This document shows positions 904 to 26,800 of a stretch of DNA of 27,422 bases, one piece after another (within the stretch, counting starts at the first letter, position 1; each line of letters starts with the position of its first letter). This stretch comes from a virus, in the IMG/VR virus record IMGVR_UViG_3300018428_006815, positions 1-27,422 of that record. One strand, written 5' to 3'. The translations under genes were made by a program, and so were the position numbers. Under the pieces are notes generated by a model. The model was not told the origin of the DNA. It searched no databases and saw only the letters and a list, made by a program, of their open reading frames with translations.

Positions 904-1540
904 TATCTGAAGTAAAATTTTGACTTTGCGCTGGCATTAATACATGATGAAATAAACCATTGGGGTCATTTTTATTAATGCTTTTAATAATAAAATGATC
1001 TACTGGCAGATTCATATCATTATGTTTATATTCATTTATTAAAACCTTTGCTCCAGAAGGGGTTAAGATATATGCAATTGATGTCATGTGCCAAAAATAA
1101 TCATTTTTATGGAAGAAGTTATTCTTCTTAACATTAAAAAAATATTTGTTATACTTTTTTAAAACCTTGCGGTACAGAGGTAAATTTCTTTCAAGACAAC
1201 CACCAAGATAAATGATATTATAATCTGAAGGTAAGTAATTAGAGTATTCACAATTCCATTTGTCTTCGAAACCTAAATCAAACACAACATCATCTTCAAG
1301 AATTAAAATAGTTTTATTTTCCTGGTATGCAATTAACCAAAGGTTATAGTGACTAAGAAAACAAGCCTTCTCTTCTTTAGAGAGAGGTTTTTTATCATTT
1401 AAAAATTTTGAATCTATAGCATTAAATCTATTAATTCTAAAATTAATATTTTTCTGAATATTGTATAATCTATCTTTTCTTCTGCTAAGATTAATAAAAT
1501 ATGATTCATCAACACCGTTTAAACATTGATTTGTATTCAT
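887..1540 (-). CDS. Glycosyltransferase family 25 protein
   Basis: A 217-residue cytoplasmic enzyme of the GT25 (LOB1/LPS glycosyltransferase) type, which moves a sugar from a nucleotide-sugar to a glycan or protein acceptor. Landmarks in order: the N-terminal FINLSRRKDRL (15-25), EKACFLSHYNLW (57-68), the metal and donor-binding acidic motif ILEDDVVF (80-87, EDD at 82-84), AYILTPSGAKVLI (about 156-168) and PVDHFI (179-184). The length is near the family norm and the protein looks intact. There is no signal peptide or membrane segment. It overlaps the preceding glycosyltransferase gene by 32 bases, so the two are probably coupled and act in one pathway. The ATG at 1540 is the only ATG before the first motif and lacks a clear ribosome site. 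The target could be a virion protein or the host envelope; the sequence does not say which. Confidence 0.9.
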   Translation of the reverse strand: MNTNQCLNGVDESYFINLSRRKDRLYNIQKNINFRINRFNAIDSKFLNDKKPLSKEEKACFLSHYNLWLIAYQENKTILILEDDVVFDLGFEDKWNCEYSNYLPSDYNIIYLGGCLERNLPLYRKVLKKYNKYFFNVKKNNFFHKNDYFWHMTSIAYILTPSGAKVLINEYKHNDMNLPVDHFIIKSINKNDPNGLFHHVLMPAQSQNFTSDIKLHH

Positions 1541-5252: not shown

Positions 5253-8200
5253 TCAAAGTACATCCGTAAAGGTATCAGTTGGCACAACCTGATGTTCATT
5301 ATATTCAGCATCATCTAATTCTACAGTAGCTCCACCATCAATAATTTCATACTTAATTTTAGAATGCTCAAGTGCCATAATTTCATATTCACTACCAGAC
5401 TTAACTTCCTTGATACTTTTAACTTTAAACTGCTTGCCGCCAATATTACTATCTTGATCGTCTTTACCTTGTTTCACTAACCAGACAAAACCACCACGAA
5501 CATTACTAGATACAGCTTTATCTAAAGTTAATACAAAACCCTCTCTTTCTAAAACTTGGAAGGAGCTATATTGCTTTGTGTGTTCTGGTTCTTCGTCGCT
5601 ATCTGTGTCTGGAGTAAAAGAGTCTCTAATGTCTTGTATGTAAAATGTATTAATTTCTGGAGGAAGAGCTTTTACTGGGATATCTATGTATATTTTTTTT
5701 CTATTATTTTCATCCACCTTCATAATTCTACCACCACATTGGTGGGACATTTTATTATTATCAGCAACTTCAATAATATCACCTATTCTTAAATATGACC
5801 CTTGCAGGCTAGTCGAAAAGTTAATTACCTCTTTTTCCAGTTGTCGAGAATGAACCTTTGACATAGCCAACCTATTAGCTTCACCTTTTCTCGTGATAGC
5901 TATTCCTGCGATTTTAATAGCGGAATACCCGTGTTCTTTTATACCTTCTATATCTTCATAATATTCACTTTTCATTATGTAGCCATCTCTTTCGTCAAGG
6001 TAATCTACGGTACATGCTGTAATTCTAGAAGTTTGGGGTGTAGTTGCATAGGAAAAGCCAGCCTCAGTTACATTTGAATTATTAAAAAGCATAATGCTTC
6101 CACCTGCATCATTATCATCTCCTGGAGAGTCATAACTAATATAAACTTTTCCCCCACTGAAGTTTACGGTAGCTCCATATAAATTCAATAACTCTTTAAT
6201 TAGATCATATGCAGGTTTCTGAGAGTTAATGTAAACATTGCACATGTACCTACGTTCTTTAGTAGTAATCCCCTCTAAGGCTACAGTTACGGGTTCGTCA
6301 CAACGTTTAGAGAATTTCCAAAAAGACCACTTATCTATATCATCTTCTGTTAGCCCATATTTACCCATACCATAAACAGGGTTCCATAACAGATCATATA
6401 TAATCCATGCAGGATTACTTGTCCATTGTAAGTTTTCTTCGAAAAGGCCATCCCAAGTAGAATCATAAGCCCCAAGTTGAGGTTTATAGCCTGTCGGTAT
6501 TTTGACCAATTTACCTTTAATTAAATATTCTCTTCGAGGTATATCAGGCATATCTTTAGAGTTTACTCTAATTCCTATCATGGCTGAATTTGGATAAGAA
6601 AAGTAACCCGCAACATATTCATTAACAGAGAATAACTCAGCATCCATTTTATATCTAGCTTCTATAATACCACCAGTTAGTGGATCCATTTCTCTAGTTA
6701 ATCTATATACTTTAATTAACCTATTTCTGTAGTTATTCCCAGACTTAGGGTCAAGTGAAGCAAATTCAGGTATAAAAATATCTTTAACAAAAGGACTTGT
6801 TGCACAACCCTGTATTGTAAAATCTTTAGACTTGAAGGGTTCTCCCTCAATGCCGTACTCAAGTCTAAACATTAATTTTGCTGGCCAAATCTCACCGCTA
6901 TTTTTTATTATTTCGCCCATTTTTATGCAAAGAAATTTCATCAATCCCGAATTACAAGGAAACTTTCTTGCTGCTGCAAACGTAGCTAAGGCAGCCATTA
7001 AACTTGCTGCATTAACAATGAAACTTTTTACTATCTCTGTTGCAGCTATTTCTGCGGTACCAGATAGTACTGGGGGATTAAGGCCTACACCACTACCAAC
7101 CGAAGAAACTGGGCCACCACAAGGAAAAGAAGCACCCATAGAATTATTAATATCAACCTGAGGATCCGGTATCGCAATGTTAACAATTTGATCTAGAATT
7201 TTTTGAGCAATAATATATGCAATAATAGCATAAACTGTAGGTTTTAAATTTAAATAAGAAACAGATTCGTCACCTTCGTATACATAATGCAATTCATTTA
7301 CCTTAATCGATAAAGATACCATTGAAATTTCTGGATTTTCTACTGTATGCAAATAATAAAAATCTTTACTGTTTTGATCTCTTGGACCATACAAAGGATG
7401 ATTAACTATGTGGGTGTGAGCTGGTAGTCTGAATTCTTGAGCTAACAAAGGAGATCTATATGATGAATGAATATCTCGAGTGGCAAAATAAGAAGAATTG
7501 GGATTACCATTTTTGTAATATCCACCCTTAATATCAAAATGAAATTTAGAGAAATTAAACAATCCATCCTTATCCCTCATTGGTGTTCCATTTAAATAGA
7601 TAGACCTAGCCCAACCATATTGATCTGTCACTGGATCATTGACAGGTATGTCGACAGAAGAAGAAGCGGGAGGTGAAAGGCTTATAGTAATAGGATTATC
7701 AGCCTCAGAGTATGAACCAACTGGGCCACTTGTATCAATGGTTAAAGATGTTACCGACCCTTTAGAGTCTGTTGATATTTTGAATCTAGGATTAGAACTA
7801 CCCGAAGAGTTATTGGCGGCTTCAAGAAAATCGTCTTGAACAAAGTTTGTATTAAAACCAAAACCATACTGAATTAAATCAATATACTGAATTGAACCAT
7901 CTTGACTTATCGCGTTTCCGGGTATTCTTAATTTTAGGTCTTGCTTAAATAAATGTTCATCTGGATCTATATAATGAGTGTTACCAGCTATGGCATAATC
8001 TCTAGTGGAATATGTGTATCTACTAAAAAAAGAATTATGTTTTTTAATTTTGTTAAAACTTTTTTGATTTAAGGGTAAATAAATTTTATTAAATGTTTTT
8101 TTGTTGGTGTAGCCAGGATCAAGAACAAGAGCTTGAGCAATTTCTCCATATTCATTGGTCGTGCATTGTATAACCAAAGATAAATCTCTAGCTGGATCTG

Positions 8201-11200
8201 CAGATAAGCCAGCCAAGCCCCCTAAAGAACCCACAACAGTGAAAGATCTTTCTAGGGCATCTTGTTCTTCAAAACTTGGCCTGTATCCTTTATTTGCTCC
8301 ATTTACAGAATTAAGCATAACCTGTAACCCAGTACACATGTATCTATTGAATAAAAATATAGAACTATTTAAACTCGCACTGGCACCATCAGTAGTCCTA
8401 TAATTGCTACCAGTATTTTTTAAAAACAAGGAGGTCACTCTGCCTGTAAAAAACTTACTTCTCGCCCCAAAGACTTGCCTTTCAATCCTTGCCTGCCGGA
8501 CAAAAGGCACAATCGACAGATTCTTGTGTACAGAGGTAGTCCACGCGTAATGTTTAGTAAGAATAACGCGCCCAGTTTCTGCATTGTAACTAGAAACAGT
8601 AGTAAACTCCCCGATCCCGGGTTGACCCATAAAAAATATTTTGTCTCCAGGCCTAACAAATGTTCTGTTTCTTAAATAAACATAATTCGCAGTATAAGTG
8701 CGTCCAGGTACGCACCCTTGAGCTGGATCGTCATAGTATTCGTCATAAATGGGTGTAGATCCAAGTGAACTCACTCTATCATAATCATTACTAGACAAGT
8801 CTACAACCTCACATTTCATACCTATTACAGCTTTTACTGAGGGAGGTTTTTCGGCAGATATAGTAGCTCCACCTTGTGAGGCGTTTAAAGTAAAATCTAT
8901 GTGTTCCAATTCAAATGAAGCTGCAGCATCATTACTAGAATCGTTCACATTCATATTGTCTGGAAGGATTCCATTACCTAAACTACCAGGCCTTACACTG
9001 AAGCTGGAAGATATATTTAGGTGCTGTTCTTCTACATATTTTTTATAATTTGAATTAGTTAAACCTGTGCCATATAGTTTGTTTTCTACTAGCTTTCCCC
9101 CACTCATAGTAATGGTAGTCTGTAGACCATTATTACTTGCATCAATTTTGAAAACAATGCCAATATCTTGATAGTATCTCTCGAAAGCTCCGGTTTGTGC
9201 AGTGGCGGTAGTAAAAGGTAGCGCGGTATCAGTATGTGTTGGCAATATTGGAGTAAAACCCCCAATCATTGAATCATAAACTGGCAAATCTGGCGTTTTT
9301 GCTACTGTAATCATTGCAACTTTTCCAGAAGAATTTATACTAGCAAATGCTTCTATAGTAGTGGGAGCCATCATGAATTGAGAAATAGAACCATTGCTTT
9401 TATGTTTTCGAAGAACCAAAACTTCAACTCGATATACTATATCTGGCACATAATAACCTTTATTCAGGTTAGATTCCTGAGCCCCAAATGAAGTGCTTCC
9501 GCCAGCAAAAAATATAGAACTTCGATCAACCTTAGCGATATTTTCACATGGGTTAGTTGCATCGTACATATATCTACAAGAAGGTTCGCTGGGGTTCTGA
9601 AGGAAATTAACAATGTTTGAATCTTTTGCAGAGCCGCTACCAGGTACATATTTAAGGAAAATTGGATTATGATTTGAGGATCCACCACTAAAAATACTCG
9701 TACTAGTAGGTAAAGCTGTTGATGGAATAGTATGACCTGTATGGTTTTTAAAGGCGTCATAAACTCTTTTTGAAAAAGTTTCATTTCTAAGCAGATGAGC
9801 AAGTTTTGCGGATCCTGAGTCTACTGCACTTCTAAAGTAATCGACATATTTATTTGAATTAGTTTTATAAGAAAAACTGTACATTAAAGGATTACTATTT
9901 GCTGTAGGTTGTGGTAATGTAGCTCCAGAAGCATCACCACCTTGCACACCCGCGTTTCCAGCTACTTCACCACTTCTTTTTACGGAAACCGTACTCAGGG
10001 AAGCATATTGGCTAAAAGTAATATCAACATAGTAATACCTGAAAAAAGTTTGAGTAAATGAATAAGTGCATGGACATTTTCTAGTAGCACCATGCCATGA
10101 ACAATTGCTAGAAGGCAAACGAGCCCAACTTCCATTAACGCCATTACAGGCAGTTTTTGATAACAGTTCAGTTTTTTGAATAGTAGCAGTTCTGTACCCG
10201 AAAGTTCCTAAATAAAACCTTAATGATTTATTGTATTGTGTATCATTTAATGGATTTTTGGTGTCAGCATATATTCTAATTAAATTTTTAAAAAACTTGC
10301 CTTTTAAATATGGTATTTCACCCGCTTTGGCTTCTGGGTCCGTGGTATCTAGTCCAGCTATAATATCATCATCAGAAATTAAAGCTGGAGAAAAACCAAT
10401 CTGTGAAGCTGCTGGAATAACTGAAAAATAATCAAATGCTCTAGCCTGAGTAAACCTAGATTGATTTGTGCTACTGGTTGGATTAATGTCTATTCTAGCC
10501 GCTTCACTTTGAGGTTTAATGGTAATGTTCGTAGTTGTTGACTTGAGATCCTGAAAACCTAAACCTGCATTGGTTCTATATTCTTCATTTGTGCTGAGAT
10601 CCGAAAACATCAATCTTTCAAAAACATCATTGGGTAAATCGTGAGTTTCTTGAGTTTGAAAATAATCCCTGGTGCTCAAAGAATCACTCAAATCTGTAGT
10701 CTCAGAATCTCCTTGTATGGTATTGCCATCATTAGACGCTAACCAAAAACAATTAAATCCAAGCCTATTATTTACCAAAACATTAGAATATGTTGGCCTT
10801 GAATACGTTTTTGCTTGATTATTCCCCCAGATGTATCTGTGGTTCGGCATATCACCGCCATCTAATGCAGGGGAAATATCCGAAGCGCCGAGTCTCTCAT
10901 CTTTATCTTTTAAAAAGGTTGGTTTCCAATCATGAATATTTAAAGAAAATAAAGAATTAGTGCTAATAAAAGCGAGACTGCCTCTGTAGGGATTTATATG
11001 TTCCCAAAAATTTGCAAGCTGCACATCAAAGAAAGTTGAACCTTGACAATATATTGAAAACCAAAAAGAATCAGTAAGATCTACTTGCTGGTTGTAATCC
11101 CAGATATGATTGTATCGATAAGGAGCCAATGTTCCAAAGCTGGTACTACCTCCTTGAGCGCTTTCAGACAAAACTGCCGGCGGCAAACTTATCCTAAATC

Positions 11201-12611
11201 CTCGTGAGTCGGTGGGTTGATTTGCTGTTATAGTATAATTTCTAAGATTTGCAGGGTAGTTTTTACCTCTCACAAGAAGCTCTTTTTCAAATCCATCTTC
11301 ATCTATAACAGATTCAGTTTCAAAAGAAACTTGAGTTCCACCTGTATTTACATCACGAAGGTGATTTGATGTTAGATCATACTTAATATCAGAGAATATA
11401 GCTGTATCAGAAGTTGTAATTGTGTTGTCGTAATTAGCAATAAGTGGTAGTGTAACCTTACCGTGGTCATCACTAAAAAAACCAATACCTTCGGTAATAC
11501 TGTATTTACTGGGTTCCGAAATCGGCAGAGCAAAACCAGCTATTGGGCCTTCACATATTAAATCCAAGGACCTATATATTGCTATAGATTCTAATTTTAG
11601 ATATTTACCTCTCGTACCAACTTGAGCACCAATAGATTTTCCGTCATATATAAAAGAGCTATCAGTATAATTCAGGGGCCTGAAGTTTGCATCTTTATTA
11701 CCCCTTGGTGGAAATACTGCCGGTTTTAAGCCTGGGTTTTGTGCAAAACTTGAATCGTTTCGTCTAGGAGTAAGTGTTTGGCCAGGACCAAATGTTTGCT
11801 GAAAACCACCATGAGCAGATTGGCCCTTCTCATAACTAGAATTGTATGCATCATTGCCTTGGTCTGCAGTAAAGTTTTTGGCTGCTGTAGCGTTACTTGG
11901 AATAGAAACAGAATATTTACTACTATCATCTGTGCTTGGTTGATCTGCTATTGGTTCTATAGTTTGTTTATCTGAATGTCTATAATTATATTTTTTATTA
12001 AAATCAAAACCTTCTCTTAAAAAATTAAAACTTTCAACATTTGGCAAATCAAGTACATCGTCTAATCTGCGAATTTTTGCAGTTTTATAATCAAAGTCGT
12101 AGTTTGAAATATTTGAGTTAACCACCAAGCTACCAACCCTCAGTTGACCATAAACAACAGGTATTGGAGTTCCTTGTTCTGCCTTGTTTTCATTTTTACT
12201 GTATAAATGGGAATTGGTTTCTATTATTTCAAATTCTTCTACACCACCCGTTTCCTCTTTTGGGGTCAGTTTATCGGTAAGTTTTTGCATAGCCCATCCC
12301 ATTGCAGCATTTCCGGCAAATGCTCCAAGCATGCCCATGCCAGGAATACCTGCGGCAGCTTGAAATTGTGGTACTACCGTGTATTTATCCTTAGGTAAAA
12401 CCACATCCATACAAAAAGATTCAAACTTTACACCCGCTTCGTCAATTAAAAAATATTCAGTGCCCAGCAAACACTTGTCAATAAAATATTTTTCAAACCT
12501 AGGATTAAGAGCAAACAAAGCATTCCAAAACTCTCTCATACTGGATATTTCTAGATTTATTGATTCACCTAGTTGTTCCGATAGTTCGCCTGCAAATATA
12601 AAAGTTTTCAT
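5253..12611 (-). CDS. J: Tail tip protein: fused gpI-like and gpJ-like host-specificity protein
   Basis: A 2452-residue protein joining two lambda tail-tip functions. Residues 1-170 match gpI: a ubiquitin-like fold (about 1-83), an Ala/Gly-rich hydrophobic stretch (about 85-108), then the conserved PVVYGQLRVGSLVVN (151-165). After a polar linker, RSLDLICEGPIAGF (347-360) is the start-of-gpJ motif. The C-terminal hub is clear at about 2064-2107 (NPAWIIYDLLWNPVYG, DDIDKWSF, RCDEPV) and at about 2270-2285 (GSYLRIGDIIEVADNN). gpJ forms the central tail tip that contacts the receptor. Lambda J is about 1130 residues; the extra roughly 1000 here fall mainly between the two conserved parts. They include a Cys-rich patch (about 820-848) and two hydrophobic segments (about 1785-1812 and 1848-1875). 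The start overlaps the gpK stop (ATGA), with AAGGA just upstream. Confidence 0.9.
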   Translation of the reverse strand: MKTFIFAGELSEQLGESINLEISSMREFWNALFALNPRFEKYFIDKCLLGTEYFLIDEAGVKFESFCMDVVLPKDKYTVVPQFQAAAGIPGMGMLGAFAGNAAMGWAMQKLTDKLTPKEETGGVEEFEIIETNSHLYSKNENKAEQGTPIPVVYGQLRVGSLVVNSNISNYDFDYKTAKIRRLDDVLDLPNVESFNFLREGFDFNKKYNYRHSDKQTIEPIADQPSTDDSSKYSVSIPSNATAAKNFTADQGNDAYNSSYEKGQSAHGGFQQTFGPGQTLTPRRNDSSFAQNPGLKPAVFPPRGNKDANFRPLNYTDSSFIYDGKSIGAQVGTRGKYLKLESIAIYRSLDLICEGPIAGFALPISEPSKYSITEGIGFFSDDHGKVTLPLIANYDNTITTSDTAIFSDIKYDLTSNHLRDVNTGGTQVSFETESVIDEDGFEKELLVRGKNYPANLRNYTITANQPTDSRGFRISLPPAVLSESAQGGSTSFGTLAPYRYNHIWDYNQQVDLTDSFWFSIYCQGSTFFDVQLANFWEHINPYRGSLAFISTNSLFSLNIHDWKPTFLKDKDERLGASDISPALDGGDMPNHRYIWGNNQAKTYSRPTYSNVLVNNRLGFNCFWLASNDGNTIQGDSETTDLSDSLSTRDYFQTQETHDLPNDVFERLMFSDLSTNEEYRTNAGLGFQDLKSTTTNITIKPQSEAARIDINPTSSTNQSRFTQARAFDYFSVIPAASQIGFSPALISDDDIIAGLDTTDPEAKAGEIPYLKGKFFKNLIRIYADTKNPLNDTQYNKSLRFYLGTFGYRTATIQKTELLSKTACNGVNGSWARLPSSNCSWHGATRKCPCTYSFTQTFFRYYYVDITFSQYASLSTVSVKRSGEVAGNAGVQGGDASGATLPQPTANSNPLMYSFSYKTNSNKYVDYFRSAVDSGSAKLAHLLRNETFSKRVYDAFKNHTGHTIPSTALPTSTSIFSGGSSNHNPIFLKYVPGSGSAKDSNIVNFLQNPSEPSCRYMYDATNPCENIAKVDRSSIFFAGGSTSFGAQESNLNKGYYVPDIVYRVEVLVLRKHKSNGSISQFMMAPTTIEAFASINSSGKVAMITVAKTPDLPVYDSMIGGFTPILPTHTDTALPFTTATAQTGAFERYYQDIGIVFKIDASNNGLQTTITMSGGKLVENKLYGTGLTNSNYKKYVEEQHLNISSSFSVRPGSLGNGILPDNMNVNDSSNDAAASFELEHIDFTLNASQGGATISAEKPPSVKAVIGMKCEVVDLSSNDYDRVSSLGSTPIYDEYYDDPAQGCVPGRTYTANYVYLRNRTFVRPGDKIFFMGQPGIGEFTTVSSYNAETGRVILTKHYAWTTSVHKNLSIVPFVRQARIERQVFGARSKFFTGRVTSLFLKNTGSNYRTTDGASASLNSSIFLFNRYMCTGLQVMLNSVNGANKGYRPSFEEQDALERSFTVVGSLGGLAGLSADPARDLSLVIQCTTNEYGEIAQALVLDPGYTNKKTFNKIYLPLNQKSFNKIKKHNSFFSRYTYSTRDYAIAGNTHYIDPDEHLFKQDLKLRIPGNAISQDGSIQYIDLIQYGFGFNTNFVQDDFLEAANNSSGSSNPRFKISTDSKGSVTSLTIDTSGPVGSYSEADNPITISLSPPASSSVDIPVNDPVTDQYGWARSIYLNGTPMRDKDGLFNFSKFHFDIKGGYYKNGNPNSSYFATRDIHSSYRSPLLAQEFRLPAHTHIVNHPLYGPRDQNSKDFYYLHTVENPEISMVSLSIKVNELHYVYEGDESVSYLNLKPTVYAIIAYIIAQKILDQIVNIAIPDPQVDINNSMGASFPCGGPVSSVGSGVGLNPPVLSGTAEIAATEIVKSFIVNAASLMAALATFAAARKFPCNSGLMKFLCIKMGEIIKNSGEIWPAKLMFRLEYGIEGEPFKSKDFTIQGCATSPFVKDIFIPEFASLDPKSGNNYRNRLIKVYRLTREMDPLTGGIIEARYKMDAELFSVNEYVAGYFSYPNSAMIGIRVNSKDMPDIPRREYLIKGKLVKIPTGYKPQLGAYDSTWDGLFEENLQWTSNPAWIIYDLLWNPVYGMGKYGLTEDDIDKWSFWKFSKRCDEPVTVALEGITTKERRYMCNVYINSQKPAYDLIKELLNLYGATVNFSGGKVYISYDSPGDDNDAGGSIMLFNNSNVTEAGFSYATTPQTSRITACTVDYLDERDGYIMKSEYYEDIEGIKEHGYSAIKIAGIAITRKGEANRLAMSKVHSRQLEKEVINFSTSLQGSYLRIGDIIEVADNNKMSHQCGGRIMKVDENNRKKIYIDIPVKALPPEINTFYIQDIRDSFTPDTDSDEEPEHTKQYSSFQVLEREGFVLTLDKAVSSNVRGGFVWLVKQGKDDQDSNIGGKQFKVKSIKEVKSGSEYEIMALEHSKIKYEIIDGGATVELDDAEYNEHQVVPTDTFTDVL

Positions 12612-13375
12612 GAGTCCTTATACCTATATATATTATACACTTTATTTAATAACCCATCAACAATTACTTCTTTCTTGGGAAAACTATAAATAGGATGATG
12701 AAACATCATTTTATTAAAGTAAACACCTAAATGCATAAACCGAGATATAGTCGGCTCAAAAACAATCAAATCACCATCCTTCATTTCTTTTTTGTCAACA
12801 ATAAAAAAATAATCTTGAATGTGACTAAGCATATCTTCATTGTTGTTATCTTTTCTTCTAGACCAGTTGATATTAGTGTTGTGTAAATTTATATTTAAAT
12901 TCAATAAATAAAAATCTTTAACATAACTTAAACAATCTTGAAAATAAGGAATAAAAATTCTTTGTGACAAGCTTCTAGGTTTATAATTTTTAGGATAATG
13001 CAGGTATGTATTTTTCGAAGCAGTTGATAATATAAAAGAAGGAAGAGCGAAAGACTCAGCCATAGAAATATCACAGGGACCAGGTCTAGGATCTTCTGAA
13101 AGGTGAGTATGAAAAAGAGATATAATATTATTTTTTAAATATTGATTGTAAAAAAAATCGTTTTTACTATTAAATAAATCAGGAAAGAAAGAACCTTCAT
13201 TCTTAAGGGGGTAAAAGCAGAAATTATTGTTTTGATCGTTTAAATAAAAAAACCCGCCAGTTTCATTATTTAAATCACTTAGTCCATGCTTAAAGGAAGA
13301 CAATAAAACCTTAGCCGTATGATCCTGGGAATCCTCCAAAAGGTAGTCCATTTTGTTTTTCTTTGTTAGAGCCAT
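12608..13375 (-). CDS. K: gpK-like tail tip protein: JAMM peptidase plus NlpC/P60 peptidase
   Basis: A 255-residue two-domain protein equivalent to lambda gpK, a tail-tip assembly protein whose NlpC/P60 part can cleave peptidoglycan stems. The N-terminal JAMM/MPN domain shows E38 (NNETGGFFY), then H89-x-H91 and D102 with the canonical eleven-residue step. The Ser usually placed between them is replaced by Gly, so metal-dependent activity is uncertain. The C-terminal NlpC/P60 domain has catalytic Cys148 (YFQDCLSYVKDFY), His215 (RFMHLGVYF) and a later HH (226-227). It overlaps the gpL gene by 65 bases if the ATG at 13375 is used. An ATG at 13351 (MDYLLEDSQDHT) would shorten the overlap and is equally possible. 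Its position between L and I-J matches lambda order. Confidence 0.88.
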   Translation of the reverse strand: MALTKKNKMDYLLEDSQDHTAKVLLSSFKHGLSDLNNETGGFFYLNDQNNNFCFYPLKNEGSFFPDLFNSKNDFFYNQYLKNNIISLFHTHLSEDPRPGPCDISMAESFALPSFILSTASKNTYLHYPKNYKPRSLSQRIFIPYFQDCLSYVKDFYLLNLNINLHNTNINWSRRKDNNNEDMLSHIQDYFFIVDKKEMKDGDLIVFEPTISRFMHLGVYFNKMMFHHPIYSFPKKEVIVDGLLNKVYNIYRYKDS

Positions 13376-14249
13376 TAACTATGCCAAATCTTGCACGACA
13401 ACCTGATATGCTTTTGGGGCACATATCTTGAACCCAATTTTTTTTATCTTTTAAAGGGTTGGACTGTATACCGTTATTTTGACAAACGTATAAGTGATAT
13501 ACAGTTTCATCAGATTCTTCTATATATACAGAGACGGTATCATTTTTATTATAAGTAGTGTCCTTATTCCATTTGATTTGTTTGGCTTTTGAGGAATTTA
13601 AAGTAAAGCTGGCAGACAAGTTGTGAGTTAAATTATTACCGCCTTTGTCAGTGACTGGGGGACCTTTATATCCACAACCATAAGAATGGCGATATTTCCA
13701 TCCACAAACATTATGAACTAATTTTCTTCCTGGAATTAAGCCCCCGTCTTTTTCAAATCTAGAAACTAATTCAAATTGAATAAAGTCTGCATTTTCTATT
13801 GATTTTTTGTTTATTGTATATTTTTCTACAGGAAAAGAAACTTCAGTTGGTGAACCAAAGGGATTAACATTATTTGGAAAATTTTTACCATGCAAAAACT
13901 TAACAAAAGTTTTGGTTCTTCTTACATTAAAACCAACAAAATCTTTAAAGTAACGAGTTTTTAAACTGAAAAATCCATCTGTATTGTCAAATTTCAAAGT
14001 CGGCCTAGGAAGAGTTTCATCTTCGTAATCAAATCCGTGCGCTTGACACGGTATATAAAAATACTCATTAGAACCTTTTCCGTCTCCACTAAAATATATA
14101 GGGTTACCATATCCATTCTCCCCAGCATGAAACTTATATGTGGCAGGGATGTCCTCCTCAGTTTCGGGGTCTTTTAAAATTATTTCATATAAAGTAATTA
14201 ATGTGGAGGGCTCAAGCTCCATAATTTCATTAAAAATTTTATTATTCAT
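13311..14249 (-). CDS. L: gpL-like minor tail protein with Fe-S type Cys domain and an inserted module
   Basis: A 312-residue homologue of lambda gpL, a tail-tip protein whose C-terminal domain is reported to hold a [4Fe-4S] cluster. The N-terminal domain runs from STLITLYEIIL through RPTLKFDNTDGFF and the VRRTKTFVKFL strand. LIPGRKLVHNVCGWKYR and CGYKGPPV follow. Four cysteines match the cluster ligands: C182, C192, C277 and C284 (MCPKSISGC). The C-terminus PFGGFPG matches lambda NFGGF. Between the second and third Cys, about 85 residues replace about 23 in lambda. Part of this (about 226-275) looks like a CBM5/12 carbohydrate-binding module. Start is the ATG at 14249, 23 bases after the M-like gene, with no Shine-Dalgarno site. 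Confidence 0.87.
   Translation of the reverse strand: MNNKIFNEIMELEPSTLITLYEIILKDPETEEDIPATYKFHAGENGYGNPIYFSGDGKGSNEYFYIPCQAHGFDYEDETLPRPTLKFDNTDGFFSLKTRYFKDFVGFNVRRTKTFVKFLHGKNFPNNVNPFGSPTEVSFPVEKYTINKKSIENADFIQFELVSRFEKDGGLIPGRKLVHNVCGWKYRHSYGCGYKGPPVTDKGGNNLTHNLSASFTLNSSKAKQIKWNKDTTYNKNDTVSVYIEESDETVYHLYVCQNNGIQSNPLKDKKNWVQDMCPKSISGCRARFGIVNGSNKEKQNGLPFGGFPGSYG
13425..13574 (-). other. CBM5/12-like insert in the gpL Fe-S domain
   Basis: Residues about 226-275 of the gpL-like protein: IKWNKDTTYNKNDTVSVY, then YHLYVCQNNGIQSNPL and KKNWVQ. The order W, then YxxxDxV, an aromatic strand, N-x-G-x(3)-NP and a closing W is that of small chitin- or cellulose-binding type 5/12 modules. It sits between the second and third cluster cysteines, where lambda gpL has only a short loop. 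Confidence 0.55.
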
Positions 14250-14272: not shown

Positions 14273-15436
14273 TTAAACACATTCAATAAATGTTGCCGAT
14301 ATATTATGGTTATCTTTATATATGTATGTATGCCTCCATTCTGGGCAATAAAAAGTTGAAATGGTTTTTTGATTAGGGCTCGAGCCTTGTGCGGAGTTCG
14401 GGTTCCCTCTATATTGTTTTTGTAAATGGAACCCAAATTTTTTGTAACCCAAATGACTCTCTAAAAACAACAATATCTTCTTTGCTTCTAAATCAGATCG
14501 ACCATTAAAATTAAGAGATAAATTAGATAAATTATGATTATATCCATATTTATTGAATTTTTTGTAAAAATCATTTACTGAAGAGGTTTTATATTTAGGG
14601 GAATGGGCAATTTGAATTGACTCGGTTGGCCTAAAATCAAACATTTTAAAACCTAAATCACCATCTTGACTTTTTGGCTTATATGGATAGAAGGAGCATT
14701 CATTAGGGTTATCAATGAAAATTGAATGCCTTAACGGGTTATGAGAAGACAAGCAATTATCGCTAGCATTAAGTTGGTAATAAGGAAACTCAAGAAATAA
14801 CTCAGTAAAAGGGTTTCCACTATTGAAAGAAACAGAACCAGGGCTTTGATTACTTGACATTTTATAATTCTTGTAACCACCATTTAAATAAACATACTGG
14901 CCCTGCCTGAATTCTAAAGCTGGCCCCTGTGTAACTTGAGCAAAATCTTTTCTAGAGGTAAAGGCAACATTAAATTTTGTTGAAATTGTATCAGATCCGC
15001 CAGCAGGAGGTTCAACACTTGACAAAATAGATGGATAAGCGCAAGTAAAAGATGCTGTCACGTTATTAACATTTTGAGTTTCAACTTGATGGGAATAAGA
15101 AAGACAATAAAATTTATTTGCCTTATAAGGATAAAAAGGAGTATAATCAAAAGGCTCTATTCTTTTATTTGTAAACAAGCCATATATGTGGTATTCTTGA
15201 GGGTCATAATAAAAATTCTTCTGAAAAAACGATATCATTTGACTTGATTCTAAATCAGTTAACTGATTAAAACTTAAATCTAATGACATATTTAACGAAT
15301 TAATACCTTTCAAAGATCTCTGTGCATAACTATCGTTTAATTGAACAGAATCAGCGAGAGAACTAAAAGATGCAGTCGATCCAAATGAAGCTGCTACATT
15401 AATTTTATCGTTATTATTTGGTGCAGAAATATCCAT
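14273..15436 (-). CDS. M: gpM-like minor tail protein with two gpM domains
   Basis: A 387-residue protein in the lambda M position (after the tape measure, before L). Lambda gpM is about 109 residues and sits at the distal end of the tail tube, joining tube to tip. Here the fold appears twice. Copy 1 (about 31-133) has YAQRSLKGINSLNMSLDLSF, SQMISFFQKN, then KFYCLSYSHQVET and NNVTASFTC. Copy 2 (about 275-387) has NHNLSNLSLNFNGR, ILLFLESHLGYKKFGFH, then FYCPEWRHTY and HNISATFIEC. Both carry the strand, a helix ending in a Gly-Tyr-Lys-Phe-like turn, and the closing Cys strand of gpM. The linker of about 140 residues is beta-rich and unassigned. The ATG overlaps the previous stop (TAATG). Confidence 0.8.
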   Translation of the reverse strand: MDISAPNNNDKINVAASFGSTASFSSLADSVQLNDSYAQRSLKGINSLNMSLDLSFNQLTDLESSQMISFFQKNFYYDPQEYHIYGLFTNKRIEPFDYTPFYPYKANKFYCLSYSHQVETQNVNNVTASFTCAYPSILSSVEPPAGGSDTISTKFNVAFTSRKDFAQVTQGPALEFRQGQYVYLNGGYKNYKMSSNQSPGSVSFNSGNPFTELFLEFPYYQLNASDNCLSSHNPLRHSIFIDNPNECSFYPYKPKSQDGDLGFKMFDFRPTESIQIAHSPKYKTSSVNDFYKKFNKYGYNHNLSNLSLNFNGRSDLEAKKILLFLESHLGYKKFGFHLQKQYRGNPNSAQGSSPNQKTISTFYCPEWRHTYIYKDNHNISATFIECV

Positions 15437-16641: not shown

Positions 16642-17897
16642 GTTAAAACTTTTATTTTATGAATACCCGGTTCTTTAATCATATTCACAACATTTTTATA
16701 TTGATTTATTTCATCAATAGTTAAGATGTTATTTACTTGATTAAAATTAATATTTTCAGAAGTATCGCTAGTATCAAAATCAATTACCTGAAATGGTCCA
16801 TCAGTTAAAGGTTTAAAAATAAATTCTTCATAATCCGGAGATTCATAAGAAAAGCCTGTCACACCCACAATGCCCTGAGATTCAGTCATAAAGGTTAAAG
16901 CAGATGGAACTTCTACACTTGTGCCATCATCAAAAGATATTGTAGATTCAGCATTTACAATATAACCTCCAGCGGAATTATTAACGACCGATTTAGCAAT
17001 CGGTTCATCAGATAGCTCATCTTCAATTACATAATAGATTTGATTGGTTCCAATGTTTGATACATCCCAAATAATAGGATTAAGGTACTGCCTATCGCTT
17101 TTGTTTATATATCCATTGTATGTAACATTCACAGTAACTAAATCGGTGCTCGAACTTTGTATAGAATGATTAACGATTCTTGCATTTTTTATAGTAAAGG
17201 TTTCTATTCTTGAATTATCTATTGGATTATTTAAAACAATATTCAAGTCTTGCTGATATGGTTTTTTAATAAAGTCTCTAAATTTAGTAAATTCATAATC
17301 ATTAAAATCAAATGTTAAATTTGCTTCTTGAAATATAGGGTATTGAATATCAACTTGAACTGGGCTAGTTGATCCTATTTTATACAAAGGGTTTCTATTA
17401 ATTCTTATTGTATATTGAAATCTAGAAACTCTATTTGTTTCATAATCTTTAGCATTAATTAAAATAGATCCTTGATTGGGTATTTGTATGTCTGGGTTAA
17501 GATTATTACCTTCAGCTGTTATACCTTGACCTAAGTCACCGTAAACATTAATTGAAGCTTGAGCCTGGGGTATTTGACCTATACCAGCAGAAAAAGAATA
17601 TTCTGTTAAAAACCCATTGTCAAATCCGATGCTTTTATTTCCATAGTTTATACTACCCTTAATAGGTGTCTCGTCTATATAATCTAGTAAAGGTTCATCT
17701 CCTATATAATATTTTTGTATAGAAAAATTACCAATCATGTTTCCCTGCTTTGCTGGATAAACATAACCCTTACCAATAATATTAATTGGTTCCTGAGAAA
17801 TAGAGTAACTGCCATTAATATCAGTTACTCCAGACAAAAGAATACCATTTAGGTAAAACGTTTGCTCGTAATTAAATAATGCATTTTTAGTAGCCAC
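16638..17897 (-). CDS. Tube-like minor tail protein A, GTG start
   Basis: A 419-residue beta-rich protein. The opening segment YLNGILLSGVTDINGSYSIS (15-34) and the later EYSFSAGIGQIPQAQASINV, then YGDLG (about 99-123), read like tail tube strands. The C-terminal 120 residues are acidic and may be an extra domain. It resembles the next gene in strand order and in the Q-A-x-A-x(4)-YGxL motif, so the pair looks like an old duplication. The start is a GTG inside the end of the tape measure gene. It is backed by a perfect AGGAGG eight bases upstream, the only strong ribosome site I found in the window. A distal tube or adaptor role is inferred from position. Confidence 0.65.
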   Translation of the reverse strand: MATKNALFNYEQTFYLNGILLSGVTDINGSYSISQEPINIIGKGYVYPAKQGNMIGNFSIQKYYIGDEPLLDYIDETPIKGSINYGNKSIGFDNGFLTEYSFSAGIGQIPQAQASINVYGDLGQGITAEGNNLNPDIQIPNQGSILINAKDYETNRVSRFQYTIRINRNPLYKIGSTSPVQVDIQYPIFQEANLTFDFNDYEFTKFRDFIKKPYQQDLNIVLNNPIDNSRIETFTIKNARIVNHSIQSSSTDLVTVNVTYNGYINKSDRQYLNPIIWDVSNIGTNQIYYVIEDELSDEPIAKSVVNNSAGGYIVNAESTISFDDGTSVEVPSALTFMTESQGIVGVTGFSYESPDYEEFIFKPLTDGPFQVIDFDTSDTSENINFNQVNNILTIDEINQYKNVVNMIKEPGIHKIKVLT

Positions 17898-20800
17898 TTA
17901 AAGAACCTCCTGTTTGCTTTTCTTGAGAAATAACACCAACTACAGCATCTTTGATTTTGGAAGCCATAGCTTGATCTGCATCTCCCCCACCACTAACAGT
18001 AGACTCACCGCTGGAGCTGACGTTAATATTTATGGTAATATTCCCCCCAGAACCACTTGAAGAATTAGGAGCTTCAGCAGTTGGAGAAGATGGAGCTTTT
18101 ACTATTCCACCTTGATTCATCATATTCAAAGAATTTAGTCGATCAAAAAATCCAGGATTATTTTTTTCAATCTTACTAACACTATCAGCCTTTACTACAT
18201 ATTCCCCCTGATCTAACATGATAGGGCCAATTTTATCTATTCCACCCCTTCCAATAACTTTACCACCTTGAGACATCTGTGTGGGACAGCTACCACCAGA
18301 ACATCCTCCTCCATATGGCCAGTTACTCTTGCTGAATTCTGCATCCAGTGATTGATTTCCATATATAGAACTAGAGTCCAAAGAAATTCTATTTGCTTTA
18401 AAATTTTGACTAGCATTATATTCACTCAAACCTTGAGGGTTCATGCCAAATGGACTTGGGGAAGATCCAGAAGAAGCCTTAAGAAGCTCATTGCTTCGAT
18501 TTAAAACTTCAGCACTCTTAGAGAGGTTTACGCCTGATTGTTTAGACATAGACATAGCTCTAGACATTTGAGACCTGTCTGATTTACCAAATGCATTGCC
18601 ACTAGTCATGGTAAGCTCATGAAGGGTTTGAGGTTGCCCTGTGTTCTGAGAGCCTAATTGAGATCGACGATTTGAGCTTTGTAGATTTTTTGACATTTCT
18701 AGACTTTGTTGTAATTGTCTTGAGGTAGCCATAGCTCTAGCCATCTGGTCTCGTTCTGCTTTAATAAACGTACCGCCAGTTAATTCTTGACCAGTTAATG
18801 CTTTATAATTTTTGCCAGATTCTGTTTTCTTGAGGCCCTGATTTAAGAACCCAAAAGAAGCTCCAGCCTTTTTCTGCCAGCTAGAGTAATCAGTAATTCC
18901 TTGCTTTTTCCATCTAGCCATGTCGCTAGCAACACCAGTGTTAACAAAATTGGGGTCATTTTTAGATGGGTCGGATTGATAAGCTTTACCTGAAGCCCAA
19001 CCTTTCATTACACCACCAACACTGCCTCTAAGTTCCCATGCGGCTTTTGCTGTATTTGCTAATTCGCCAATTTTACTCATAGCTAAACCGCCAGCTAACT
19101 GTCCTACCATACCCGAGTATTTTTCATAGCGAGCTTTAGTTTTAGCATTCTTTTGTTCTACATCGTATTGGTATTTATTCAATAAATAATCTCCATACTT
19201 TTTGCTATAATCACTTCTGACTCTTGATCGAGAACTCATCATATCTCCAGTTGGGTCAATATCTAAAGTGCTACCAAGGTTTACCCTTCTAGAACCTGGA
19301 TCAACTGGGGCAGTTGGGCCACCATAAGGTTGATCTTCCCTATTGGAGTGTGCTGCAATCATTGTTCCAGCTAAGTAGCCTCCACCTCTAGCAACATTCA
19401 TTGCAGCGCTATCACTAGATGGATTGAATATATTATCATTTGACCACTTCTTAACATCATCCCAAACACTGCCACCCTCATATCTATGCAATAAACCACT
19501 AATGTTTTTACCAACAGCCGCAGCTATTCCTCCAGCATTTAATTTAACGACTGGAGTTGGTATAGAGCCTCCCGAAGCTAAAGTGACTGGTCCACCGTCT
19601 TGCATTTTGTAAATATCTTCAAGACTACCAGTAGAATTCATTTTATTCAACTTATCCTCTCCCAGTCTATCTACTATTTTTTTACGTACTACATACTCAC
19701 CAGCAGTAAGCATAGTTGGAACTTTTTTGTTTTCCGTATAACCAACTCTTCCGCCTCGATTTCTGCGTATTATTCCTCCATTATATTTAGTTACTCCAGT
19801 AACTGCACCACCAGTACTAGTATCACTACCAAATCCCATCATCGAGAAAATGCCACTAGTTAATTGCATTGATGCTCTGTCAATTAATTTGTCGTGTATT
19901 TTTTGCACGATACTACCTGCAAATTTTAAAAATACATCTTCCATTCTCATGGTTGAATCTGCAATGTCTCTAGCCATTTGTCTGAATCCATCTTGAACCG
20001 CATCAAAAGAAGTATTAGCTAATGTTTCTGAAAATCTTTCTATGGCCATATTGTTTTCTGCAATTCTAATATTTAGGGTGTCGCGAAACAAATTTTCTTT
20101 GCCATATAGTTCTATATTTTTTTCCTGGGTAAGCTTAGCTAGCTCTAATTGTTTTTCTGCAGCTTTCAGAGTGTTACCTTCTCCGGCATAAACACTCTGT
20201 TGAGCTGATAGTTTTTGCTCTTTGCCGCGTTGCTGAGCTCTATTAACATCAATTTCTTGAAGTCCTTCTGCGGCAAATCCACCCATATTAATTTTGTGGT
20301 TTAATTTATCAAGGGTAACTTTATGCTCTTCTTGAGCCTTAGCCATTTCATATGTAGTTTCAGCAAGATACAATCCAGCTTGTCTGTTTGCGTCGTATTG
20401 TAAAGATAAATTTCGAGTTTGATCGATTAGATCATTTGTAGATATTGCAGCCATAGCTTGATTACCTGTTTGACCAACAAATTGCGAAAGCCCTGGATTG
20501 GCTTCCGCATCATCAGATGTAATTGTTTGATTCATTGCTGCGCGTTGTGCTGCAGCCAAACCAACTTCACCAGCTCGACCAGTTATTTTATTTGCGACTT
20601 CATCTTTAACTAATGAAGATAGCATTTCCTCGCTTTCCAGCAAACCAAGTAAAGCATTATTTCTTCGCTTTGTTATGTCAAGAGAGGAGGTTCTTTGATT
20701 GTATTCTCCTTCTGCGAGGGCTTGTATACCTTCCGCAGTTAGCAAACCTTTTGTTTGAGTTTTTTGAAGTTCACTATTATATCTACTTGTATTATTGTTA

Positions 20801-23800
20801 GCTATCTGGTTTAATACCGCATTTTTACCAACAAGGTCTGCGTTTGCCTTAACTCTTGATATTCCAATTTCAACAGCTTGAGCCTCTCCATTTTTTAATC
20901 TTTCGATAAATTGAGCATCATTAAGTATTGCTAGTTCGGCTGCAGCCTGCTGTTTTCTATATTCTGCTCCTTGTTGTGTAAATTTAATTGAGTCTTTAAT
21001 ATTTTTTGTAACTTCTTCAGTAGCCACATCTTGACCTTGAAAGACACTACTTTTGCCATTAGCACCACCATCTTTATCTTTACCCAGTAAGAGGGTAGCT
21101 CCTTCTGAAATTTTAGAGATATCCTCAAAGGTTTCAGCTTTATCATATGCGGCATTAATTGATTTTAAAATTGCAGCTCCAGCTGCAGCAGCTGAAACTT
21201 GACCATCCATCTGTTGCTTAAGATCTTCCAAATTGGCTTGAATAGAAGATGTTAAGCGTGCATCTAAGCCCATTTCACTAATATCAGTAGAGAGTCTAGC
21301 TGTATCAATGGCCCCAATTTGGCTGTCTTTATCTACATATTTTCTATTGATTGAAAGTTTTGACACACCTTCTTTTCTTGCGAGCTGGCTTCCTATCTGT
21401 TCTTTTAAATCGGCGACAGCTTTTAATCGAGCATTTCTTTCTCTGTCATCTAAAGATTTTAATTTATTTGAATGAGCTCTTCTTTGTCGAGCCAGCATAA
21501 CCTCAACATTAGTAGCTTCCCCTAAAGCTAAATTTTGATCGTACTTTAATTTTTCTGCTTCTTGTCCAAGTTCGAACATTTTATTTCCATGTTGAAAGCC
21601 CATTTCCTCTAAACGTAAACGGTTAGCCATTTCTCGATTCATGTCAAAAATATAATTGTTAGATATTTGTAAAAGTTCATCTAACTTTTTTTGGTCTGCG
21701 GCAGTTTTTGCTGCAGCCTCTACGTGAGATTTAACATTTGTCTTTAAATCTTGAAACAATAATTCAACATCTTTTGAGCTAGCACCGCCCTCCATGGCTT
21801 GTATTATACCCCTAGCTTGACCCTTTATGGTGTCTGGCATGCTTTCATCGTCAGCTATTGTTTGAGCTAATTGTTGCGGAGTCATCCTACCTTCGCTTGG
21901 GTTGCTTATATTTATTTGATTAGATTGATTAATTGCTTCAGCGAATGATGATTCAAATTCAGCTATCTCAGCATTCACTTTAGACAAGGCCTCATTAAGT
22001 TTTAACAGTTGTGCTGAAGATTCTCCGTCTTGACTTGAACTCTTTACCCTACTTATTTCTTGCTCTAAAACGGCTCGCTGTGAAATATTGCGATTATTCT
22101 GATTTAGTCTTTCAGAAGTTGGTCTTGCAGCGTTAATGTTGGGTTTAAAATTTTCAGTTACAACTGATCTATTTGGGGCCGCAATTGAACCATCGTCAAA
22201 ATTAGTTTTAGAAAATAATTCTTGAAGTTTGTTAATGCTAGCTTCGGCCTTATTTGCATCAAAGTCATTTTCTCTGGCAACACTTCTTGCCATTTGATTG
22301 ATCGCTAAACTTCTTCCTATTGGGTCCGCTTTTTTATCTTCCCCCATCATGCCTAAGGAAAGCATATTCAATAAATCTTGGTTCGCCAAAGCCTCAGCCC
22401 ATTGCTGAACTTGATTTAATCCTTGTAGGGATTCTTGAGCACTTAAAGAAGCTTCTTGTAGTTTTCTTAAGCCTTCAGCTGTACCTGAAGTCATAAGAGC
22501 TAATTCGTCTGAGCTTAAACCTAATTCTTTTCCTAACCTACCAGCCTCTTTCATTAAAGCTTCTTGTTGTTTGGATTGTTGAGCTAATAGCTTCAACTCT
22601 TGTGTTCGACCTTGGTATGTTCCAGCTAGAGCGCTATTTTCTAGATCTTTTAATTTGTTGTTGGTTTCTAATAAGCCTTCAGAAGTTTGAACTGCCTTTG
22701 ATAGTCTACCAACGCTTTCAGAGGCTTCTTCTAAAGATTTGTTCATATTTTCAGCAACACTTCTTCCAATTCCAAATTCTTCTCCAAGTATAGTCATTGC
22801 TGGGCCTAGTGCTGCTAGAGCAAAACCCACCCCAGGAATAATGCTACCCAAGTTTCCAAGAGCTTTACCAAGAAATCTTGCTGAACCACCTGCAAGGCCT
22901 TTCTTATTTTGTCCAGAAGAATCTTTACCTAAACCAGCAACAAAACTACCATATCTAGTAATCTTATCTTCTGATCCCATGATCATTTTATCAACACTTT
23001 TACCTATACCTTTCATGGCATCAAATGCTAACATGGCTTGACTACCAGCTTGTACAACACCAGTAAGGGTTCTAGCGGCTGTTCCAGCCGTTCCTTCAAC
23101 TTCAGAAAAAGCTCCTTCAAGAGCATAAGTTACGGTGGTCAATCCCATTAACCTCATAGACAATCCTTCAACTGCTTCATTTGTAGAATCACCACTTACA
23201 TTTTTAGGTTCTTTGCTGTATCTATCTTCAACACCTTTACCTGCCACTACAAAATTAGGAATAAGGGCATAATTGGGAACAAATCCGACACTGGCCCCAT
23301 GGTTCTTAGGGTTAATTCCCATCTTTCTGGATCGAGCAATACCCTGTTTTATACCACCCGGCTCATCTTTTATATTGGTAACAGCAAGGCCTCTTGCATT
23401 TTGGGAAGAGCGCAAACTATTGTCTTGCTCTATTCTAATTTGAGATCGAGGTACACCAGCAGCAACTTCTCTATCAATTGCTTGATTCAAAGCTTTATCG
23501 TTAGAACCTAAAGCATTAATCCTTTTTCTTTGGCCGCTAAATGCAGACTGTTTTTCTTTTCGATCATAAACTTCCCGAATGATGTTAGTGGGAACTTTAA
23601 TGTTTTGTGCCTGAAGGTCAGCTATACCTTGATCAAGTGAACTTAGGTCATACTCCAATAAAACTTTCTTAATTTCAGATTGCGAAAAAAGTGTGCCTGA
23701 ATCAAGTTGTTGAGGTCTAACTACATCTGGTACAGATTTAAAATTCTGAGACATTGATTGATCAGATGTCTTGGAAGTTGATTGAACACTCGAACCTGGG

Positions 23801-26800
23801 GAACTAAAGTTTTTAGAGTTAGACTGATCACTAGTTTTACCACCGAGCTGTACACCTTCTCCAGGTTGCTTAAAGTTACTAGATGCAAAATTAGGAACAA
23901 ATCCAGAACTAGCATAATTAGCATTATAATCTTTTATTAAATTAGATAAATTAGGAATGTTTATTTTTTGTGTTGATATTTTATCACTATCCCTCATTGC
24001 AGAGTCATAAGCTTTACCAGCATTAATTTTCTGCCTACCCTGACCAATTTGCTTCATGCTTGAGTCATATTTTTCTCGCGCAGATTTATTTATTTGTTGA
24101 CGCTCATTAGATGCAACATCAAGACTTTTGATAGCAGAAGGGGAGATTCCTTTTTCGGTTAAGTATTTTTTAAACTTTTTTAAACCCTGAGGGTTAGCTT
24201 TAATTGACCATTTCTTTTTTCCATCAGAACCTTGATCCATATGCCATTTCACTTGATTAATTTTTGAGTTTTCAGCATCTAGGCTTTTTTCAGATTCAGT
24301 TTTTTCTCTTGGCTTAAAAACATTTAAGGCTAAAATAGACTGAGCAGGAAGTGTGGAAATTTTCTTAATAGCTCCAGTTATGTCTAGTTGAGTCGTACCA
24401 CCAATACTGTCTTTTATTATATTATTAGATCTAGCATAATCACGTATATTTTTTTCGTTATATGAAATATATTTATAATTATCTCCTAGCTTTTTAGATA
24501 GTGGCCCCTTCATCTGCTCGAAGTCAACAGACGAGCCATCACTAAAATTCATAGTTTGTTTAATGGCTGAGGTAGGCTTAAATACACCGTGTTTAATTTC
24601 GTCTAAATATTTTTTATTTTGAGCCTCATTCTCTTCTTTTGCTTTTTTGTCTTTAGCGATTGCAAAAGTGTTTGGTTGTGTACCCCAAGATTTAACTTGA
24701 GATAATGCTTGAGGAGAATTCACCCAATAAACTTCTTCGCCACCAAATGAGCCTTTATTCAACCCAAGAATGGGTTGATTGATTTCTTTCATATGTTGCA
24801 CGAAATGTTTATAGCCTTCTTTAGTGATAAATGTTTTTTTGTTTTTTATCGTTTGACCAATAAAACTTCTACCAAAAGTCTTTGATTCATAGCCAGAACC
24901 ATAAGTAGCTGAAGGTCTTTTACTATAAGCAAAACTAGGAACAAGGCCAATTGGCGCAGCATTCAAAGCACTAGCCTTAAATGGGTCTATCCATTCATCT
25001 GAATTTCTGGGAATATTAATTAAGTCATCTGATCTTAATGTGTCTATACCAGCAGATTGAATTTGGTTTTTCTTGAAAGACAATTCATTGAGTTGGTTGT
25101 AAGATCCAATCTTGTCTTGAAAGTTGTATTGTCTTCCTCGCTTTTTTAGGCTTTTTACAGCAGAAGCTTTAGTGGATAGATCTACCTGAGGAGGCCTAAA
25201 GAAATCTCCAGAAATAAACTGTTGAATTTTGGGGGCAGTTCTTGGTGTAATCGGCTCAATATTTACACCTTTGTTTTTCAGTGAAGTATTGTTTCTGAGG
25301 TTAAATTTTACAAGAGCTCTTCGAATCTGGGTTTCAGGATCTTGTTGTCTTTGAGCTTTACCCGCAGCTAATGCACCAGCACCACTACGAACATAATTAG
25401 GGATTAAGCCTTGATTAAAAATTTGCATAACCTCTTGCTCACGAGAACTAATTTGCCTTGTTCCATTCGGGTTATAGCCAATATCTGATTCAGGCACAAT
25501 TTGATTCATTGTTTTACCATAGAAATCATAATCCTTCCTGCCATATTCTGTTTTGTAATGATCTAATAAAGAAGGATCGTTCCTTCTACCAGAAACATTG
25601 AGATATATTCCGCCATTTTTCTCTGCCCATTGTTGTATGGCTCCACTAGCCATGGCTTTTTTAAACTCTTCAACTTTAGGATAGTGACCTCTCTTTGGAT
25701 CAGCTCCTTTGTTCAGTATTTTTAAAAGCTTTCTTTTGCTAAAGACATTTTTTTCGGGAATAGTTTTAGATAAAACTTTATCTTTTGCGGGCTTATTAAG
25801 TCCGCCGCCAGCAAATGTTTTTGCGACTGTTTCTGAAGTACTAAAAGATGTAGCTCCAGATGGAGCGGTGTTATCAATCTCACCAATATCTCTAGATCCA
25901 GAAAGAGGACCACTCACGTGAGATTTAACAAAATTTTGTATAATAGCTACAACATCATCTGGGGTTTTAACTCCAGAAAAAGATGGCATATTTTTACCAA
26001 TGTTTGGTTTGTCTATAGTGTCTCTTTTTTGACCTCTATATAAATTGAGATTGGCGAAGTTGGGTAAAAAGTCAGAATCTCCGTACTCCTCGTCAAATGA
26101 CAATGATTGTCTTTTAATTTTTTGATGAATTTGCTTTGGATTCATTTTTGAGAACTTTATAGAATCAAGTTCACTCATCCCTAAATCCATTAAATAAGAA
26201 ACCTTATCACTGACATTGCGCCAAACTTTTTCAAATTGTTTTTCGCCGCTAGACAATAAATTATTACCTTTATCTACAATAGATTTTGATACATTAGCGA
26301 TAAAGTTTTTTGATGAATAATTTGGAATTAAGCCATTGCTAACAACACCAAGATCTAAAGATGAATCAATTGAATGATCCCTATTTGCATAATTCGGAAT
26401 AGCTCCAATGGATGCTCCATGAGTCTTAGGGTCAATGCCCATTTTTTTAGCCCTTTGAATTCCTTGTTTTACTCCAGCCGGCTCATCCCTAGTATTAATG
26501 ACAGCCAAACCAGATGGATTGGCTTTAGATTTTAAACTGTTATCCTGATCAATCCTAATCATTGACTTAGGGATGCCAGCTGATCGCTCTCTGTTCACGG
26601 CTTCAGTTAGCGGGTTAGAGAAATTTGGAATAAAGCCAGAACTAACATCACCAGCGAGTTTATTTTCTTCTGCTGAAGCTCCCATAAGTTTTCCAGCGGC
26701 CTGACGGAAATTAGGCACAAAGCCAAAGCTAGATTGGATAGGTTTATAGTAACCTAATTCTTCACCAAATTTTTGAATTATTGAAGCTTTTTCTTTTTGT

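Follow-up and report, generated by a model that had tools for sequence, protein, structure and literature searches.

The window, that is, the whole stretch of 27,422 nucleotides that was analysed, carries tail genes in the lambda-type order: a tape-measure-like ORF, followed by genes for gpM-like, gpL and gpK-like proteins and a gpI-gpJ fusion. The gpM-like minor tail protein (14273..15436, minus strand) matched Phage_min_tail (4e-17). The gpK-like tail assembly protein (12608..13375, minus strand), with an NlpC/P60 and a weak JAB part, matched NLPC_P60 (5.9e-7) and PHROG 30. The gpI-gpJ fusion of 2452 aa (5253..12611, minus strand) was assigned by PHROG 32 at residues 1-172 and by PHROG 31 (central fibre J, 1.5e-98) near its C-terminus. 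It was observed that gpI and gpJ appear here as a single ORF, in which about 1800 residues without family matches separate the gpI-like part (1-172) from the J core (near 1995-2433). The ORF at the tape-measure position (17887-27390, minus strand; 3167 aa) gave no Pfam match, and its N-terminal half contains scattered short repeats, such as GFIPNFSNP, GLIPNYSS and SGFVPNFA. Downstream of the tail genes, a glycosyltransferase family 25 gene (887-2444, minus strand) adjoins a DUF2827 gene.

The gpL-like tail-tip hub protein is encoded by an ORF of 312 aa (13311..14249, minus strand). It matched Phage_tail_L at 1.1e-33 and 116.7 bits, well over the curated Pfam cut-off of 25, as well as PHROG 18 at 4e-50. 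The lambda gpL chain 8iyk_L was matched both in sequence (1.7e-18) and in structure (Z 13.5). Judged by sequence and model together, this ORF is a homologue of lambda gpL. Residues 1-166 (13752..14249, minus strand) form the HDI attachment domain, which aligns with lambda gpL 17-157 and with T1 gp36. The Fe-S domain follows in two halves. The first half, residues 170-202 (13644..13742, minus strand), contains C182 (13704-13706) and C192 (13674-13676), and C182, W184, Y186, R187 and G191-C192-G193 were invariant in the gpL alignment (A4). The second half, residues 275-312 (13314..13427, minus strand), contains C277 (13419-13421) and C284 (13398-13400); these two cysteines, R287 and the PF..FPG tail were invariant in the same alignment.

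Between the two halves lies an insert. It begins with a variable linker, residues 203-224 (13578..13643, minus strand), whose mean pairwise identity is 28% and whose length differs among relatives. The linker is followed by a CBM5/12-like domain, residues 225-274 (13428..13577, minus strand), which was delimited from the AlphaFold2 model, CBM5/CBM12 structures and a profile match, and whose core aromatics are W227, Y233, Y254 and W272. The interval 13425-13574 (minus strand), for which the sequence-only reading had proposed a carbohydrate-binding-module-like insert of some 60 extra residues, corresponds to residues 226-275. This size was borne out, since C192 and C277 are separated by 84 residues compared with 22 in an ordinary gpL, which leaves about 62 extra residues; the insert-less relative L020 also has 22 residues between its second and third Cys. 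The four ligands and both flanks are retained, as had been proposed: C182, C192, C277 and C284 align with the four lambda gpL ligands and were invariant in 25 sequences. The last strand of the domain, W272-V-Q-D-M-C277, leads directly into the third ligand.

The fold of the insert was evaluated with AlphaFold2. The full-length model, built from a 25-row gpL alignment, had a mean pLDDT of 75, with 86-93 for most of the insert, a dip to 64 at residues 241-250 and values below 50 at residues 170-189, around the first ligand. When the insert was modelled alone (22 rows), the pLDDT was 87. The model is compact and an extended loop was not seen; residues 225-274, approximately, are thus predicted to be a separately folding domain, in agreement with the sequence-only reading. 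Foldseek searches with the insert gave no match with E < 0.001 and PDB E-values of at least 0.3, and the top rows were occupied by tailspikes of phages and by a baseplate protein. The structural case for CBM5/12 is accordingly made by a second look with VIA-align and by the profile evidence, not by Foldseek. VIA-align returned the Pa193 tail fibre (Z 7.4), the A-1(L) fibre (Z 6.9), the CBM5 of S. marcescens ChiB (1e15; Z 6.8-6.9 over 47 residues) and the module of a Vibrio chitin deacetylase (4nyu; 1.1 A over 44 residues), together with the ChiC (2d49), ChiA1 (1ed7) and EGZ (1aiw) modules. The rows with Z of at least 5 were mostly CBM5/12 modules or phage proteins of that fold. With the full-length model, ChiB CBM5 was found again at residues 193-276, and ChiC again too. 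Values of Z below 8 are modest for such small domains, and for this reason the sequence evidence matters.

In sequence, the 22-row profile of the insert was aligned by hhalign with 12 CBM12-type sequences (four PDB stretches and eight phage stretches) at P 0.0005, and none of 500 column permutations was as good. With 60 non-redundant copies the same set was matched at 90% (P 1.5e-6; 0/300 permutations as good). A three-sequence CBM5 set gave only 3.5%. Conserved Y, V, Y-x-C, P and W stand at matching positions of the insert and CBM5/12. The window's own insert had no CBM_5_12 match in a Pfam scan and no significant match in a direct sequence search of the PDB. Nevertheless, CBM_5_12 was the commonest weak Pfam match of the relatives (3/22, and 6/20 in another set, best 8.7e-4); among the scores listed, none of them exceeded the cut-off of PF02839, the best being 15.9 bits against 26.2. 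A YkuI_C match (0.0026) was disregarded, as it was under the cut-off and seen in one or two members only. The best profile match outside gpL was a protein of Nitratiruptor phage NrS-3 encoded just after the tape measure (97.5%). In this protein (L059:1387-2544) the same CBM-like domain was noticed near the N-terminus, followed by DUF2460. We take the insert domain to be a remote relative of CBM5/12 whose profile comes nearest to the CBM12 type. From model and profiles, the insert has a CBM5/12-like fold, and the earlier fold call was right.

The same insert was found in the four loci identified first and in further IMG/VR relatives, with 37-82% overall identity. Y233, C256, P265 and W272 were invariant across 22 diverged copies, so the W/Y pattern pointed out before is real and, judged by this conservation, the set of W227, Y233, Y254 and W272 is not chance. 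The mean pairwise identity was 35% for the domain, 59% for the HDI domain and 62-66% for the two Fe-S halves. Between close pairs, the domain dN was 0.14-0.18, while dS was > 1 and near saturation. The sequence comparison indicates that the domain is under purifying selection, with dN/dS well below 1, and these figures together show a part that appears constrained, yet faster-changing than its scaffold. Such faster change is as expected for a surface-facing part. A tree of 101 rows was made from the gpL part before the second Cys. There, 35 of the 37 CBM-type representatives formed one clade (100/100) with no loss, L074 and L147 standing apart, and two changes were required for the CBM-type insert. 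The neighbour of the window on this tree is L080 (84/89), where the CBM-like domain is the shortest and most CBM-like. Scans of genome contigs revealed no relative. A tblastn search of 50,697 phage records with a relative's insert and flank gave chance-level matches only (E 8-9), none of them in gpL. Two of these chance-level matches, an Ep020 fibre and the NrS-3 protein, looked CBM-like.

The length of the loop between the second and third Cys (C2-C3) was surveyed in two exact-motif scans of at least 120 stretches each, pooled with the earlier loci. Among the matches listed, the loop was measured in 112 gpL ORFs of the four-spacer class and in 116 of the three-spacer class; the pool contains loci picked for their likeness to the window, which biases the proportions. 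Among these matches, the loop had 20-28 residues in 104/116 of the three-spacer, lambda-type gpLs. In the four-spacer class it had 21-22 residues in 36 and mostly 67-122 in the others, again among the matches listed. The CBM-like domain was present in 74 of the 75 long loops listed for four-spacer gpLs, all from uncultured phages. Long inserts occurred in about ten of the three-spacer gpLs listed, and eight of these contain a stretch, or the start of one, with QxDGNxVxY-type repeats or degenerate forms. When three lectin-like inserts were scanned, B_lectin was matched at 3e-7, 4e-7 and 1e-4, all under the Pfam cut-off: two just below it and the third weaker. On the gpL tree, the lectin-like insert required one change (99/98). 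Bulb-type lectin-like repeats were noticed in the C2-C3 inserts of L193, L215, L227, L243, L253 and L302, and also of L250 and L268; the lectin-like inserts have about 290-320 residues, two being cut off. Two other inserts had no Pfam match, one of 186 residues with a coiled-coil look (L236) and one of 136 residues rich in Gly/Thr (L194).

In order to evaluate the sugar-binding potential of the insert, its residues were compared with those of characterised modules. W687 of ChiA1 binds chitin. In CBM5, a consecutive Y-W or W-W pair is important for chitin binding, a third surface Tyr contributes in some members, and a Tyr and a Trp belong to the core (PMC8449059). The core pair is kept in the insert as Y233 and W272 (Y265 and W299 of CjCBM5), invariant in the 22 copies. 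The window insert has no aromatic residue where the pair of CBM5 and the Trp of ChiA1 fall, namely following Y-x-C and preceding P. The canonical chitin-binding aromatics were missing in 52 of the 57 relatives checked, and in the remaining five copies a Tyr or Phe stands close to the Pro. The insert is therefore unlikely to bind chitin in the canonical way. If the insert binds sugar, this would take place via a surface other than the canonical aromatics, and a CBM5/12-like fold alone does not imply sugar binding. The glycan-binding function proposed before found no support in these residues and is putative.

The explanation that we favour, with a probability of about 0.5 for the whole, is a single old insertion, exposure at the surface of the tip and low-affinity contact with glycan. 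Sequence, tree and model show that a small CBM5/12-like beta-domain entered the loop between the Cys pairs of gpL, most likely in a single ancient event, and has since been inherited within one clade of uncultured phages. From the lambda and RcGTA structures, three copies are expected to stand out on the exterior of the trimeric tail tip, around the cone. The lambda Fe-S domain has been placed on the outer tip surface (PMC10721106), and the gpL C-terminal region has been called hypervariable and presumably near the cell wall (PMC13243795). There, the most likely role of the inserts would be to make low-affinity contact with glycan on the host surface (capsule, LPS or peptidoglycan), and they may help to hold or orient the tip ahead of the action of the central fibre and plug. 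By analogy, such contact is the most likely role, at about even odds; it is favoured by the sugar-binding-type modules found in the same loop elsewhere and by a domain that changes faster than the scaffold. Counting against it are the lost aromatics, the Pfam scores, which among those listed stay under the CBM_5_12 cut-off, a CBM of phage A-1(L) that does not bind and the low-confidence Fe-S model. The idea that, on the particle, the insert is a neighbour of the peptidase gpK was not supported: it comes from gene order alone, and gpK was undetected in lambda virions (PMC10721106).

The main rival is that the insert is a structural bead, docking side fibres or the large gpI-gpJ regions without binding sugar. 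This is a serious possibility, although it is given less than even odds. The same fold occurs in the particle-binding region of the phiAB6 tailspike and in bead I of the Pa193 fibre; the chitin-binding aromatics were lost while core residues were retained; the partner J is unusually large, with the intervening ~1800 aa; and the best non-gpL profile match is the NrS-3 protein after the tape measure (97.5%). Against a bead, recognised sugar-binding families occupy the same loop in other lineages, and the domain evolves quicker than the assembly scaffold. Accessory insertions are common in tail-tip hubs, and the gpL C-terminal region is termed hypervariable (PMC13243795), as would suit a passive decoration that is retained through inheritance and has no particular function in binding; however, the absence of loss among the 35 representatives, the dN/dS well below 1 and the invariant core residues make this very improbable. 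It is also unlikely that the CBM5/12 likeness arose without homology, by convergence on a small beta fold that is common. Modest Z values (4-7), Foldseek E of at least 0.3 in the PDB and the lack of a significant PDB sequence match are compatible with convergence, but most VIA rows of Z at least 5 are CBM5/12 modules or same-fold phage proteins, the profile match far exceeds the column permutations, and Y, V, Y-x-C, P and W are conserved in register.

Beyond the low-affinity glycan contact proposed for the window clade, the presence of the CBM5/12-like fold and the B_lectin-like class at one site gives the Fe-S loop of gpL the appearance of an insertion port. The modules differ by lineage: CBM5/12-like in the window clade, B_lectin-like in another gpL clade and a third, GTA/R4C type. 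This reuse of the same spot by unrelated sugar-binding-type domains points to a general location for parts that contact surfaces. More tentatively, the loop might be a general exchange port in which the cluster is a clip that closes the ends of the insert, so that unrelated glycan-binding modules are displayed and the hub is left undisturbed. What the Fe-S cluster does in tail tips of the gpL type has been stated to be uncharacterised (PMC10721106). If true, the port reading would give this long unexplained cluster a role, and the uptake by the loop of three or more modules that appear unrelated offers a rationale for the Fe-S domain that can be tested. The inserts may also mark a second host-contact site beside the central fibre, in phages known from metagenomes only.

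Compared with known systems, the insert shares with the CBM5/12 modules 1e15, 2d49, 1ed7 and 4nyu the fold and the core W/Y...Y...V...Y...W, and its Y-x-C is as in ChiA1. It differs in the loss of the chitin-binding aromatics, in the greater length of the hairpin that joins its first two strands and in its carrier, a tail protein, whereas CBM5/12 modules ride on enzymes. A similar fold (Z 5.7-7.4, VIA-align) is found in beads of the Pa193 gp47 fibre, among which the first (bead I) has the fold of the insert, of the phiAB6 tailspike, of the A-1(L) fibre and of APK16 gp47. Like the insert, these beads belong to the phage adhesion apparatus, although they are located in trimeric fibres or spikes and not in the Fe-S domain of a hub. 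The matches of the insert in BFVD were likewise mostly tail fibre or unnamed proteins. The N-terminal part of the phiAB6 tailspike with this fold was termed particle-binding by its authors, and in cyanophage A-1(L) the distal CBM on the neck fibre showed no binding to host cells. In the evolved Dit of phages of lactic acid bacteria, a CBM in the tail-tip ring protein aids adsorption (PMC10688798, PMC6669499), but there the hosts are Gram-positive, the carrier is Dit and the CBM types are others.

Lambda gpL (8iyk_L) has the HDI domain, the Fe-S motif and the gene order L-K-I/J in common with the window, but a 22-residue loop and no insert. In the RcGTA hub, an oligosaccharide-binding domain at 168-249 interrupts the ion-binding domain (143-167, 250-263) (PMC7296036), and the roseophage R4C hub has the same layout, with 142-161 and 244-266 flanking 162-243 (PMC10276861). 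The cysteines of the R4C hub (vBDshSR4C_014) are 147, 157, 244 and 251, with 86 residues between C157 and C244. RcGTA g13 and the R4C hub thus resemble the window gpL in the gene position, in the four-Cys Fe-S site and in a domain of about 80-86 residues between the Cys pairs, described as oligosaccharide-binding; the statement of the sequence-only reading that no described case was known has to be withdrawn as far as the architecture is concerned. The families are different, PF09931 and PF09356 in the R4C hub and PF05100 (Phage_tail_L) in the window gpL, and hhalign detected no profile similarity between the window and R4C inserts. A limited literature search of open-licence papers found no description of a CBM5/12-like fold at the gpL Fe-S loop. 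The insertion site for a sugar-binding-type domain was already known, and what is new is the CBM5/12-like fold at this site together with the B_lectin-like class.
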